A DNA stretch of 61,205 nt from Opitutaceae bacterium (GTDB lineage Bacteria > Verrucomicrobiota > Verrucomicrobiia > Opitutales > Opitutaceae): positions 1 through 61,205 of the forward strand of contig JAUYAK010000033.1 of assembly GCA_030693515.1 (NCBI GenBank), in the 5' to 3' direction. The notes under the pieces are model-generated. The model was not told where the DNA came from. It worked only from the letters and a program-made list of their open reading frames with translations, and ran no database searches. The position numbers and the translations under genes are program-made. This document shows, piece by piece, positions 8,831 through 46,398 of this stretch (position 1 is the stretch's first letter; every line of letters starts with the position of its first letter).

Positions 8831-8993
8831 ATTGAGAATCGCGCGATAGCCCGACGGCGAGGTCCGAGGTAGGGCGGGTCTGTGACCCGCCCTGAAACGT
8901 TCGGCGCGCGAATGGGCGGGTCACAGCCCCGCCCTACCCCAGGGCCACCGCTTCCGATTTCGCATCGTGTCAGCCTATCACGCGATTCTCAAT
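8831..8993. repeat. Nested pair of inverted repeats, possible mobile palindromic element
   Basis: This stretch is the core of a non-coding gap of 380 bases (8724-9103). The outer arms are 19 bases, at 8831-8849 (attgagaatcgcgcgatag) and 8975-8993 as its reverse complement with one mismatch. Inside them are inner arms of about 25 bases at 8869-8893 and 8914-8938, starting ggtagggcggg and ending cccgccctacc, again with one mismatch. The short ends gtagggc...gccctac recur at 10025-10096 and 18056-18115. There is no open frame of note. A REP/MITE-like element is likely; a structured regulatory RNA ahead of the downstream operon is an alternative. I see nothing else in the gap. Confidence 0.75.
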
Positions 8994-11181: not shown

Positions 11182-11482
11182 TCAGGCCTCGTGGGGCCGA
11201 GCCAGGCGCTTGGCGGATTCCGGGGCGTCGAGATAGTTTTCGCGGCTCACGATCTTGCGGCCGGCGAAAGGGAGGGGGCAATTTGCCCCTTCCCTTTGAA
11301 GGCTCGGTTGGCGTAAGAAACTTCAACGCAAAGGAGGGGGACAACTTGTCCCCTCCCTTGACGTCACCGGCTAGGACGTTGGCTGTGAACGCGACGACAT
11401 CGACGATGACGAACCACCACTCGCCGGCGTGGAGGGTTTTGCGGATTTCCTTTTTCTGGAACAGGGCGATGCGGGTTTCCAT
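11182..11482 (-). pseudogene. Bro-N (phage antirepressor-like) gene, internally replaced by a palindromic element
   Basis: From ATG 11482 the first 36 or so residues (METRIALFQKKEIRKTLHAG, then EWWFVIVDVVAF) are the start of a Bro-N domain protein. The frame then runs into two hairpin sequences (11267-11359). Beyond them, in a different frame, comes RKIVSRENYLDAPESAKRLA and a stop at 11182, which looks like the C-terminal tail of the same protein class (compare the usual 'KVVSxENYL' ending). The centre of the gene is gone. It starts 19 bp after the restriction-modification gene on the same strand; Bro-N/KilA-N genes are frequent companions of such loci. A short 103-residue product could still be made. 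Confidence 0.65.
11267..11359. repeat. Paired hairpin element inside the broken Bro-N gene
   Basis: Two hairpins lie in a row: 11267-11297 (aaagggagggggcaatttgc and its complement) and 11330-11359 (aaaggagggggacaacttgt and its complement). They are about 32 bases apart, and each also resembles the reverse complement of the other. This is the layout of a REP doublet (REPIN-like). It occupies the place where the middle of the Bro-N coding sequence should be, and the frame changes across it. Confidence 0.7.
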
Positions 11483-11501: not shown

Positions 11502-14500
11502 CTACCGCACAAACGTGCCGGCTTCGTCGCCGGGGCGGGCGCGGCCGAGGGTGACGAGGGTGTGCAGGATATCGAGGATGTCGGGCGCTTTCGCGCGGGC
11601 GAAGCGGGCCGCCAGGGTCGCGGCGGTCGCGGGGCTGGCCTCGGCGGCGAGCGCGAGTTCGACGGCGCGCACGCGCTCGGCGAGCGACGCCGGCCACGCG
11701 CTCTTGGCCGGCTTGGAGGGAGGGGTTTTAGGCCCCGACTTCCGGCCGCGGGATTGGCCGGGGCGTGAAGCCCCTCCCGCCGTGCCGGCCTCCTCCAGGC
11801 CGAGGGCGGATTGTTTTTCCCCGGCGAAGAGCGGCTGCTGGTAGTCGGGCCGGAGCCAGCGGACGAGGCCCCGGGCCTCCTCGGCGGCGCGGGCGGCGTT
11901 GAGGGCGACGACGCGCCCGAGGATTTCGGCCTCGGTGAGCGGCCAGGGCCAGCCGTAGGCGGCGGCGACGGCGGCATCGAGGTCGTCGTGCAGCTGGCGG
12001 AGGGTGGAGACGAGCGCCCGGTCGTGGACGAGTTTTTCCTTGGCGGTGAGGACGATTGGGGGTGGGGACGGCTCTCCGAGCCGTCCTGGGTTGGCGGTCG
12101 AAGCGGGGAACTCAGGACGCCTCGGAGAGGCGTCCCCACCCCGGACTTTTTCGAGCACGTTGTAGATATCGGTGAGGCCGAGGCCGTGCTGCGCCTGCGC
12201 GCGCTTGCGGTGGGCGTCGAGTTCCTCGGCCAGCGCGCGGATTTTCTCCTTCTGCTTTTCCGTGCAATCGGGGAACGGGAAGGGATCGAAGCATTCCGTT
12301 TTGGGGTAAACGGGACGGTCTTCGAGTAGCGCGCCGCGAGAAAGTGCAAACGTCGCGTGGATGCGGCTACTCGCGACGCCGAGCTGGAAGGCGTCTTCGA
12401 GAGCGATGACGACGAGTTTATTGTCTGGAAGAATTGCGGCGTCGAGAAACTGAAAGATGCGATGCTTTGCGGTCTCGACAGTCGCTATGTAGCGCCGCAG
12501 GCCGACGAGCGCTGGACGAAGCTCGGGACGTGGGCGACCGAACAACCACCAATTTTCTTTTATCTTTGGCTCCCGGTTTTGGTCTCTATCTGGTTTCACG
12601 TTCTTGAGCACGTGCTCGTAAACTTTGGGAAATCGCGTGCGCACCTCTTCGGACGTGAGGCCAAAGAGATCGATCACCATCGCGTCGCGCGGTGTGTCGG
12701 TGAGGTCTCGGCCGTTGCGATAGGAGCGGATGTGTTGCTCAAGGCCGTTCACTTTTCCGAGCCCGAGTGCTTTCGCTTGTTCGGGTGTGATGATGAAGCC
12801 GTCGCCGAAAAGCATCATGCCGCGATAGGTGAGTCCATCGTTCGCCTTGAGCGGCAGCGTGACGGCGACATTCGTGCCGGTCGTGAAGTCGGGGGAAATC
12901 GCGCCGAGATCGAGTCCAAGTTGCACCGCGTTCTCGCCGGTGGCGTCGGGTTCCTCGTGGGTGACTTGCTGGAGCTGGCCGACTGTGGGAGCGGCTTTAC
13001 GCCGCGATGGTTCGTCGCCGGAGTCGCGGGGTAAACCCGCTCCCACAATTTTCGGAAGCGAGCTTGCGCCGACACTCATCGCGATGCGAACGGCGGCTCC
13101 ATCGGAGCTTTCCACCCATGGGTGATCCGGAATCGCGAACGTGAGATAAAGGCCATCGTCCATCGCCGCCTGCACTACCCGGCGGTTGAATGTCTGGCGA
13201 ATGCTGTTGGTCGTGATGAAGCCGAAGCGGCGCGCACGGCCGGCGAGCACTTCCAACGCGGCCTTGTGCCACCAGAACATCACGAAGTCGGCGCTCTCCG
13301 GCATTGCCGGATAGGTTTTACGCAGCGTCTCGGTGTAACCGTCGCCGAGGTCTTCGCGCATCCGGGCTGTGCCGAGAAATGGCGGATTCCCCACGATGAA
13401 GTCCGCCTGCGGCCATTCGGCTTTGTGCGGATCAACGAAGGTTTCGAGCGGGATGACGGCTTTTTCGTCGGGCACGGCGCGGCCGGTTACGGGATCGGTC
13501 TTCATCGTCTTCCGGTCCCAGACGAAGCGCGTCGCGCCGTGGGCGTCCGTGGCGAATTCCTTTTTGTCGTAGGCGAGGACGGCGTCGCGGCACTCGATGT
13601 TCTTGAAGGCGCGGAGGACGGGCTCGGGCCACTCGGTGGCGCCGCGGTTGCGGTGGTGCCACTGGAGGTAGCCGATCCAGAGGACGAGCTCGGCGACGGC
13701 GGCGGCGCGGACGTTGAGTTCGAGGCCGAGGAACTGGTGCGGGTCCACGGTCTCGCCGCCGAGGTCGAGGCGCATGTTCTCGCCGAAGCCTTCGAGGAGC
13801 ACGAGCACCTCGCCCTCGAGGCGCTTGAGGTGCTCGAGGGCGACGTAGAGGAAGTTGCCGGAGCCGCAGGCGGGATCGAGCACGCGCACGGCGCAGAGGC
13901 GGTGGTGGAAGGCGCGGGTCTCCCGGATGGCGGCCTTGAGGTCGCCGCGGTTGGCGAGCGTGATGGCGGCGGCGCTCACCTGGGACCACTCCTCGCGGAG
14001 CGGCTCGACCACGGTGGGGAGCACGAGGCGCTCGACGTAGGCGCGCGGGGTGTAGTGGGCGCCGAGCTTGTGGCGCTCGGCGGGGTGGAGGGCGCGCTCG
14101 AGCAGGGTGCCGAAGATGGCGGGCTCGACGTGGCGCCACTCGCAGGCGGCGGCGCGGCGGAGGAGGCCGAGCTGCGTGCCATCGACCGGCAGGGCGCGGG
14201 CTTCGGCGAAGAGGCCGCCGTTGAAGCAGAGGAGCTTTTTCTTCAGCAGGCCGGAGAAGCGGCCCTCGTTCATGTCCTCAAACAGGAGCTGGAGCAGGGG
14301 CACGAAGGCGCCGGGGTCGGCCTTGGCGGAGTCGAGGAGCTGCTTGAAGCTGTCGGCGGGCAGCAGGCCCACATCCTCGGCAAACATGCAGAAGAGGCAG
14401 CGGGAGAGAAAGGCGGCGACGTCCTTGGGCTCGTGGCGGCGCTCGAAGGATTTGGCGAGTTCGGCGAGGTGGCCGGCGACCTCGCGGGTGACGGCCGCGG

Positions 14501-15134
14501 CGATCTTGGAGGGATCGAGCGCGAACGGATCGAGCCAGAGGGCGCGGAGCCGGGCGCGGACGGCGGGGTCGCGGAGATCGGCGAGGCGGATGCGGTTGGC
14601 GCGGGGATCGGGAAACGGGAGGTAGGCTTTCCCCTGCTGGGAAAAATCGGCGTAGAGCTCGAAGACGTGGCCGACATCGACGACGAGGAGGAACGGCGGG
14701 GTGGGCTCGCCGGCGGGGAGATTGCGGGCGTAGCGCTCGGCCTGGCCACGGGCCTTGAGCATGGCGTCGTCCCACGCCTCGGAGCCGCGGGCGATCTTGG
14801 GTTTCCTCGCGGGCGTGGCATCGAGGGCGAGTTCGGCGGGCTCGCCGGCGGGTTTTTCGGCGGCGTATTGCTTGGCCTCGAGGACGAAGCAGCCGCGCTT
14901 GTAGAGGTCGATGCGGCCGGTGGTGGATTTGCCGTCGCGCTGGTGGAGCGGCACGGCGCGCTCGAAGACGTAGGCGTTGTGCTCGGTGTCGGCGCCGGCG
15001 GGATCGGGACGCGGCACCTCCAGCACATCGCACAGCTCGGCGAGGAAGAGCGCGTAGTTGGCGCGCTCGGAGACGGACGAGGCCGCCCAGCGGGCGATGA
15101 AGGCGGCGACGGCCTCGGCGGTGGCGGCGGGCAT
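11502..15134 (-). CDS. MmeI-like single-chain restriction-modification enzyme (type IIG/IIL)
   Basis: A 1210-residue fused nuclease and adenine methyltransferase. The N-terminal nuclease has D76 in [10 protein letters not shown] and E86-A-K88 (PD-(D/E)xK), so cleavage activity is likely kept. A helical spacer is at about 190-410. The methyltransferase has motif [10 protein letters not shown] at 420 and motif IV NPPF at 583-586 (adenine-N6 type). A target-recognition region follows at about 690-930, then a helical C-terminus. Bases about 12300-13330 (residues 600-930) are clearly AT-richer than both ends, as if the recognition part had been exchanged. Three palindromic elements sit inside the frame (residues about 696-717, 999-1025, 1119-1139) without breaking it. 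They fall in or after the recognition domain and outside all catalytic motifs. Defence role: methylates host sites and cuts unmodified DNA. The recognition sequence is not predictable by eye. Confidence 0.88.
11720..11778. repeat. Palindromic element within the restriction-modification coding sequence (C-terminal)
   Basis: Arms ggaggggttttaggccccga (from 11720) and ggggcgtgaagcccctccc (to 11778) are imperfect reverse complements with about 20 bases between. On the minus strand the stretch is read through as a low-complexity, Gly/Arg/Ser/Pro-rich segment ([17 protein letters not shown]) near residues 1119-1139. The composition contrasts with the helical sequence on both sides, as expected of an inserted element. 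Confidence 0.65.
12061..12140. repeat. Palindromic element within the restriction-modification coding sequence (after the recognition domain)
   Basis: An 80-base element. The left arm starts ggtggggacggctctccgag at 12061 and the right arm ends ctcggagaggcgtccccacc at 12140; over about 32 bases the arms match as reverse complements at about 28 positions. It is read through on the minus strand as [20 protein letters not shown], a Pro-rich stretch (residues about 999-1025) between two ordinary helical regions. The frame is intact on both sides. Confidence 0.8.
12984..13047. repeat. REP-like palindrome within the restriction-modification coding sequence (recognition domain)
   Basis: Left arm tgtgggagcggctttacgcc (12984 on) and right arm ending ggggtaaacccgctcccaca (13047) are reverse complements at 22 of 24 positions, with 16 bases between. 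The tgtgggagcgg start recalls the abundant REP sequences of Pseudomonas, which are moved by RAYT proteins; whether they are related is unknown. The stretch is translated on the minus strand as [20 protein letters not shown], near residues 696-717, within the likely target-recognition region, and keeps the frame. Confidence 0.8.
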
Positions 15135-18055: not shown

Positions 18056-18115
18056 GTAGGGCCTGAGTTTGCTCAGGCCGTTGGGGGAAAAGGCCCGAGC
18101 AAGCTCGGGCCCTAC
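18056..18115. repeat. Palindromic repeat between convergent genes
   Basis: Arms gtagggcctgagtttgctca (18056 on) and tgagc-like aagctcgggccctac (to 18115) pair at about 21 of 24 positions. The short ends are the same as those at 8869-8938 and 10025-10096. It fills nearly the whole gap between two genes that face each other (stops at 18048 and 18120), so it can serve as a two-way transcription terminator whatever its origin. Confidence 0.75.
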
Positions 18116-46317: not shown

Positions 46318-46398
46318 AACCACGAATGGACACGAAGAGACACGAATTCAAAAGAAGCGGTTTGGAGCATTCGTGTGGATTCGTGTCCATTCGTGGTT
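46318..46398. repeat. Inverted repeat built from aaccacgaatggacacgaa units
   Basis: Arms at 46318-46347 (aaccacgaatggacacgaag...) and 46369-46398 pair at about 26 of 30 positions. Each arm itself contains tandem cacgaa units. It is far more AT-rich than its surroundings. It fills the 98-base gap between two co-oriented genes. I recognise this type of repeat from other Verrucomicrobia-like genomes, but there is only one copy here. Confidence 0.7.

Follow-up and report, generated by a model that had tools for sequence, protein, structure and literature searches.

Probable in-frame insertion of REP-type palindromic elements into linkers of an MmeI-like type IIG restriction gene from an Opitutaceae bacterium

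Repetitive extragenic palindromes (REPs) carrying a GTAG tag are described within genes, in frame and often as dimers, in the available sections of Di Nocera et al. 2013 (PMC3733652), so that intragenic REPs as such are already known. According to those sections, Opitutus terrae holds the most intragenic GTAG repeats and has double insertions in its uvrA genes, two Xanthomonas species carry different REPs at approximately the same recB site, and Rickettsia palindromic elements (RPEs) bear a CGTC tag, with no dedicated transposase for CGTC repeats. The available portion of a review of miniature inverted-repeat transposable elements (PMC10969869) covers RPEs and describes no REP-associated tyrosine transposase (RAYT) inside a host reading frame. 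Here, three palindromes are described within a gene for a putative MmeI-like type IIG restriction endonuclease-methyltransferase on contig JAUYAK010000033.1 (assembly GCA_030693515.1) of an Opitutaceae bacterium, positions 1 to 61,205 of which, 61,205 nucleotides in all, are referred to as the window. These palindromes resemble the REPs of PMC3733652 in being GTAG-tagged and in frame inside a gene, whereas restriction-modification genes and a whole RAYT within a host gene, both present in this analysis, go unnamed in its available sections, and the reuse of one site, which there concerns a single gene pair, here extends to five places within a single gene family and to two phyla. Beyond the seen parts of these two sources, no account of REPs within restriction genes or of RAYTs within genes was found in the literature, and no publication was found that describes whole transposases in frame inside essential genes or recurrent occupation of the same linkers in different phyla, the long result lists of these searches being covered in part.

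The host gene lies at 11502-15134 on the minus strand and consists of an uninterrupted frame of 1210 codons. Its 1210-aa protein exceeds the Pfam cut-offs for MmeI_N, MmeI_hel and MmeI_Mtase, and residues 779-956 match the recognition domain MmeI_TRD with 20.6 bits against a cut-off of 27. The protein scores 1481 bits against the PADLOC model REase_MTase_IIG, MmeI (5hr4) is the one PDB entry that it matches in sequence at E <= 0.001, and 5hr4 is also the top fold match of its predicted structure. These matches identify the putative product as an MmeI-like type IIG/IIL enzyme, whose single chain combines nuclease, helical, methyltransferase, and recognition domains.

Each of the three palindromes is a REP pair. 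Site 1, at 12984-13047 (TGTGGGAGCGG..), has 24-nt arms and encodes residues 696-717, between the methyltransferase and recognition-domain matches. Site 2, at 12059-12142 (GTGGGGACGCCTCTCCGAGGCGTCC), has 34-nt arms and encodes residues 998-1026, at the turn that joins the YNVLEKLR helix to the LTAKEK helix. Site 3, at 11720-11778 (GGGAGGGGCTTCACGCCCCG), encodes residues 1119-1139, in the linker preceding the C-terminal WPxxLAERV segment, and its inverted repeat extends, and was scored, over 11706-11790. The palindrome scores of sites 1, 2 and 3 are 18, 25 and 14, against 9, 10 and 10 for the best of 20 codon shuffles, and the sites exceed the median by 23, 26 and 14 aa, respectively. A repeat search of the window picked up sites 1 and 2 and missed site 3. 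The first-pass annotation had reported three palindromes read through in this gene, which the open frame and the coordinates confirm, and had placed each in a different family, which does not hold: GGGAGNGGNNTNANNCCNCG fits both site 1 and site 3 and has 23 matches genome-wide (10 forward, 13 reverse) compared with two for its reversed control (none forward, two reverse). On these matches the three palindromes are assigned to two families, with sites 1 and 3 in common family A/C and site 2 in family B. Family A/C occupies 14 places in the genome, both arms matching at nine of them, and its copies are dispersed as inverted pairs in the manner of REP/REPIN elements. The pattern of family B has three matches in only two places (none for the reversed control), and dispersal is accordingly weak for this family. 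A GTRG tag adjoins the hairpin at sites 1 and 2 (TGTGGGAG.. and GGTGGGGACG.., respectively); the corresponding tetranucleotides on the two sides of site 3 are GCGG and GAGG, and the tag there is thus degenerate. Further GTAG-tagged REP pairs lie between predicted genes of the window at 8868-8938 and 18056-18115, and other palindromes at 46318-46398 and 11268-11359.

It is highly probable that these are REP/REPIN-type elements that inserted in frame in three flexible linkers of the type IIG enzyme and are translated as disordered loops, as the short, non-autonomous form of REPtrons, which also insert in frame. The palindromes might instead be products of chance or codon bias in Pro/Gly/Arg-rich linkers of a GC-rich genome, and the linkers are indeed GC-rich and of low complexity. 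However, a scan of 81 genes (the window gene and 80 homologue rows, some of them partial) returned 24 palindromes with a score of at least 14 and none in two synonymous-codon shuffles per gene, the same sequences recur elsewhere in the genome, and relatives have palindromes at the same linkers. The shuffles and the genomic copies rule out chance as an explanation, and its probability is taken to be negligible.

A structure model of residues 385-1210 (mean predicted local distance difference test score, pLDDT, of 83.9) contains only three segments of at least three residues with a pLDDT below 50, namely 697-712, 1003-1023 and 1101-1140, and these are the three sites, suggesting that the inserts form disordered loops. 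Insertion in the manner of RPEs, as the first-pass annotation had suggested, is supported by these predicted loops, by the genomic copies, and by the absence of the residues from most homologues. The likeness to RPEs lies in palindromic inserts translated in frame as extra peptide; the window elements are set apart by their tag, GTRG, of the kind that goes with RAYTs, rather than CGTC, a distinction drawn from the tag that the available sections of PMC3733652 report. They are therefore RPE-like in action and are not classed as RPEs. It had also been proposed that the extra loops might alter specificity, and a related explanation is that the inserts are adaptive, altering what the enzyme recognises or how it balances cutting and methylation. 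Two of the sites flank the recognition-domain match, but none of the three inserts falls within residues 779-956 (696-717 precede the match, and 998-1026 and 1119-1139 follow it), the loops are predicted to be disordered, and their sequence differs between relatives. No evidence supporting altered specificity was obtained, and an adaptive role is considered very unlikely.

Two of the three forward frames are open across 19 of the 24 palindromes with a score of at least 14, all three across three, and one across two. Family A/C copies lie in long, coding-like frames in five cases (two in the window gene, and L088, L090 and L099), a count that leaves out the shorter covering frames L084, L086, L091, L094, L101 and L103, and all five share one reading frame, giving a peptide of the VGGALRPD..HKAPPT type; the copy in L005 is read likewise. 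L088 encodes an RNA methyltransferase (Methyltransf_10), and no Pfam family matches the L090 frame. L099, on contig C67 of the window's own genome, is a recD2 gene that carries, besides the REP pair, an intein-like LAGLIDADG stretch.

An alignment of 98 rows, in which only L055 and L141 are near-identical, places the window gene among its homologues, a row being termed long where it exceeds the median at a place by at least eight residues. Site 1 is of ordinary length in 90 of 97 rows and site 2 in 86 of 94, and palindrome-free homologues do not have the same residues at these two sites; the length of the site 3 linker varies in most rows. Long rows occur near residue 529 (10/97), 660 (15/97), 696 (site 1; 7/97), 1000 (site 2; 8/94) and 1120 (site 3; 13/91), and four of these five places combine a near-constant length with a discrete minority of long rows. 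A palindrome score of at least 11 was found in 24 of 53 long sites (24 of 52 without the near-duplicate) compared with 11 of 423 ordinary sites (Fisher p 1e-17), eight of the latter 11 being in the variable site 3 linker. The 24 palindromic long sites are distributed over the five places as 2, 9, 1, 5 and 7. At place 660, which follows the helix that ends in RRVLExHL and precedes the strand LSLxFAIPDHP, the palindromes (L074, L156, L030, L040, L023/L041, L138/L139 and L069) are by eye mostly unlike in sequence; the L156 palindrome resembles family B, and the site 3 palindrome of L005 resembles family A/C. A FastTree phylogeny of 97 rows requires nine changes for the 10 rows with a palindrome at place 660, L139 being included on account of its GTRG hairpins, five changes for the five rows at place 1000, and 13 for the 17 with a palindrome at any of the five places. 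All 13 of these 17 rows that carry names are Verrucomicrobiota or Pseudomonadota. The same linkers thus appear to have been invaded repeatedly by differing palindromes in relatives from both phyla.

At place 1120 of L023, L030, L031 and L082, and at places 660 and 1120 of L023 and L041, the two arms co-vary between species and stay matched; hairpin repair, independent insertion or selection could each be the cause. Selection forms the basis of a further explanation, in which the palindromes are retained as regulatory or structural elements of restriction-modification genes at the mRNA or DNA level (attenuation, mRNA stability, expression control), which would account for the reuse of sites. 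Distant bacteria do reuse the same sites, and the place 1120 arms of the four genes differ between species yet match, as under hairpin selection or hairpin-templated repair. However, the sites coincide with protein linkers, most homologues have no palindrome, the palindrome sequences are widely different, and in-frame elements occur also in LeuS, PriA, CarB and other genes, and retention for regulation is considered unlikely.

The frequency of such palindromes was estimated from 400 kb of the genome, sampled as 20 stretches of 20 kb from contigs met earlier in the analysis. At a score of at least 14, predicted genes (369,005 bp) hold nine palindromes and intergenic sequence (30,995 bp) holds 14, with two more at edges, and 16 of these 25 have a GTRG tag at the outer end, as judged by eye. 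At the sample rate, three palindromes in one gene of this size have P = 1.1e-4, and about 0.2 such genes are expected per genome. The number in one gene, described in the first-pass annotation as striking, is therefore unusual but not astronomically so. The predicted genes of the sample include spurious frames, since a Pfam family was found in five of the eight host frames scanned (of the nine in-gene palindromes) and the L165 frame is antisense to a RAYT, so that the true in-gene rate is lower. With crude gene calls, there are 7.7 palindromes per 100 kb in the type IIG gene family, 2.7 in neighbouring predicted frames, and 20.4 between frames; it is not claimed that restriction genes are targeted. 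The window's genome has seven Y1_Tnp matches. REPs from further families stand on either side of the RAYTs at L112/L165, L115 and L116, and one RAYT lies close to a single B-like hairpin (L111).

Whole RAYTs also occur in frame within host genes. The genome of a relative (G055) encodes two type IIG paralogues with one common REP family, and in one of these, L139, a RAYT lies in frame near residue 529; the translation covers 1504 aa of an open frame of 1552 aa. L139 matches the MmeI_N, hel, Mtase and TRD domains together with Y1_Tnp, and scores 44.7 bits against REP_Tyr_transpos. With up to one mismatch, its REP has 17 copies in G055, of which 10 are inside the two type IIG genes, four are near one of them, and three are elsewhere (none for the reversed control). 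HsdR genes with an in-frame RAYT are L207 (G055, contig C77) and L242 (G007, contig C47). In the window's own genome, L208 (contig C44, 24238-27597) is an alanyl-tRNA synthetase gene with a RAYT in frame: it scores 795 bits for alaS against a cut-off of 457, it matches Y1_Tnp, and the insert aligns with positions 4-145 of 146 of REP_Tyr_transpos at 78.4 bits against a cut-off of 80. The synthetase profile runs from 1 to 378, is interrupted by the RAYT, and continues from 379 to 537 with no stops, and in an alignment with PDB sequences the host likewise continues on both sides. A second alaS was not found in this genome, which is rated 100% complete, by a search that was positive in 14 of 14 control genomes. 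Two other kinds of insert were considered and set aside: no Hint or intein family of Pfam matched L139, L207 or L208 (E <= 0.001) or L242 (E <= 1e-5), and no Rfam match at gathering score indicated an IStron or group I intron in L139, L207, L208 or L117.

A profile built from three RAYTs was run on 387 genomes of the phylum and matched in 117. Among the 150 matches listed, from which values were copied by hand and which do not represent totals, 51 lie in open frames of at least 540 aa, nine in frames of 340-539 aa, and 90 in shorter frames. Large frames outside G055 and G000 were examined in 41 cases (40 of the 51 and one other), and a host family was matched in 35, with none in L288, L291, L296, L299, L303 and L305. 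The hosts are Eco57I/PglX-like DNA methyltransferases (six), LeuS, PriA, HsdR and B12 radical-SAM proteins (four each), RarA-like ATPases and glycosyltransferases (two each), and ValS, XseA, HypF, MvaD, CarB, NspC, an FAD oxidoreductase, an aspartase-like protein with a C-terminal RAYT and an adenosine deaminase of which one half is matched (one each). The LeuS, ValS, PriA, XseA, CarB, HypF, MvaD, NspC and DNA methyltransferase loci lie in the range L273-L312. A curated cut-off is passed by 22 of the 35 hosts; the 13 below it are four methyltransferases, two HsdR, and radical-SAM, glycosyltransferase and adenosine deaminase cases. Both host flanks are directly readable in LeuS L281 (PDB 1h3n, chain up to 374, resuming at 379), PriA L282 (chain to 121, resuming at 182), CarB L298 (two models, to 472 and from 478), PriA L310 and HsdR L242. 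The RAYTs of the four LeuS genes share one stretch, between AVPAHDxRD and NSGFLDG, and are not all nearest relatives. Besides its RAYT, L281 (G508) has a REP-like peptide, GSEGFQPS, at three places (approximately 322, 464 and 1044), followed at two of them by RRQDAFAPL.

All 37 survey frames scanned with NCBIfam match REP_Tyr_transpos, with L274 and L293 alone above 80 bits. A regular expression for the HUH motif and a tyrosine, which we take to be the catalytic one, matched 38 of 41 in-frame and 28 of 28 free-standing RAYTs, and HUH alone matched 40 of the 41; the three misses comprise one motif variant, one RAYT cut short, and one (L310) without the tyrosine, and L309 and L208 were too short to be counted. 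A RAYT tree was built from 42 in-frame rows and 28 free-standing ones, leaving out L242 and L208 and the free-standing L244, L259, L260, L266, L267 and L271 (missed by the motif search); on it the in-frame rows cluster, with 14 changes compared with 22 in shuffles and none of 500 shuffles as low (short search).

Inteins recurrently occupy the same spots, in frame, in large enzymes that act on nucleic acids, and they embed a DNA enzyme. The elements described here are similar in that the same spots are refilled in frame and a DNA enzyme is embedded, and differ in that no splicing domain was found, so that the insert would stay in the protein. Like REPtrons, they combine a RAYT that keeps its HUH motif with GTRG REPs at the flanks; unlike REPtrons, the in-frame RAYTs have no stop codon of their own and are read as part of the host protein. 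In the mechanism proposed for in-frame REP/REPIN insertion, the full element would be a REPtron, a RAYT gene with flanking REPs that inserts in frame. RAYTs would insert REPs and themselves widely, genes included, and a copy within a gene would persist only if it left the reading frame open and sat where an extra loop is tolerated; a small set of linkers would consequently be filled time and again. Large multi-domain enzymes may offer more tolerant linkers, and the host enzymes presumably still work. A broader proposal, for which the odds are judged to be about even, is that a branch of Verrucomicrobiota RAYTs lives inside host proteins: the whole element, with its transposase, has one stop-free frame, inserts into loops that tolerate it in enzymes that are large and in many cases essential (AlaS, LeuS, ValS, PriA, CarB, restriction enzymes), and is produced as a domain that does not splice out, in a niche like that of inteins except for the splicing, and the window palindromes are its non-autonomous offspring. 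Loss of such an element would be difficult, since an imprecise deletion would disrupt an essential gene.

Several observations weigh against insertion of REP/REPIN-type elements in frame. No palindrome with a score of at least 11 is present at 29 of the 53 long sites, so other insertions or decayed elements also exist, and the top score among 20 codon shuffles was at least 11 in five of the 53, three of which belong to the 24 palindromic sites, with observed scores of 17, 19 and 23. The empty sites are taken from homologues of at most 66% identity. Outside the window gene, the pattern search placed family B at just one other position in the genome, and no RAYT with family A/C REPs at its flanks turned up in that genome. 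The place 1120 arms of Rhodocyclaceae were not found dispersed in eight genomes (one pattern, up to one mismatch), and zero-mismatch matches were confined to the gene itself (G600-G602), so that no mobility is demonstrated for that family. RAYT model scores fall mostly under the 80-bit cut-off of NCBI, and the evidence consists of sequences and predicted models.

Read-through mobile elements of this kind would be a source of new loops, and of whole domains, in bacterial proteins. Their insertions may serve as a natural map of tolerant positions in restriction enzymes and tRNA synthetases, and genes that contain them resemble odd fusions, which is a caution for annotation. The in-frame RAYTs would also provide a testable case of a transposase maintained within an essential protein.

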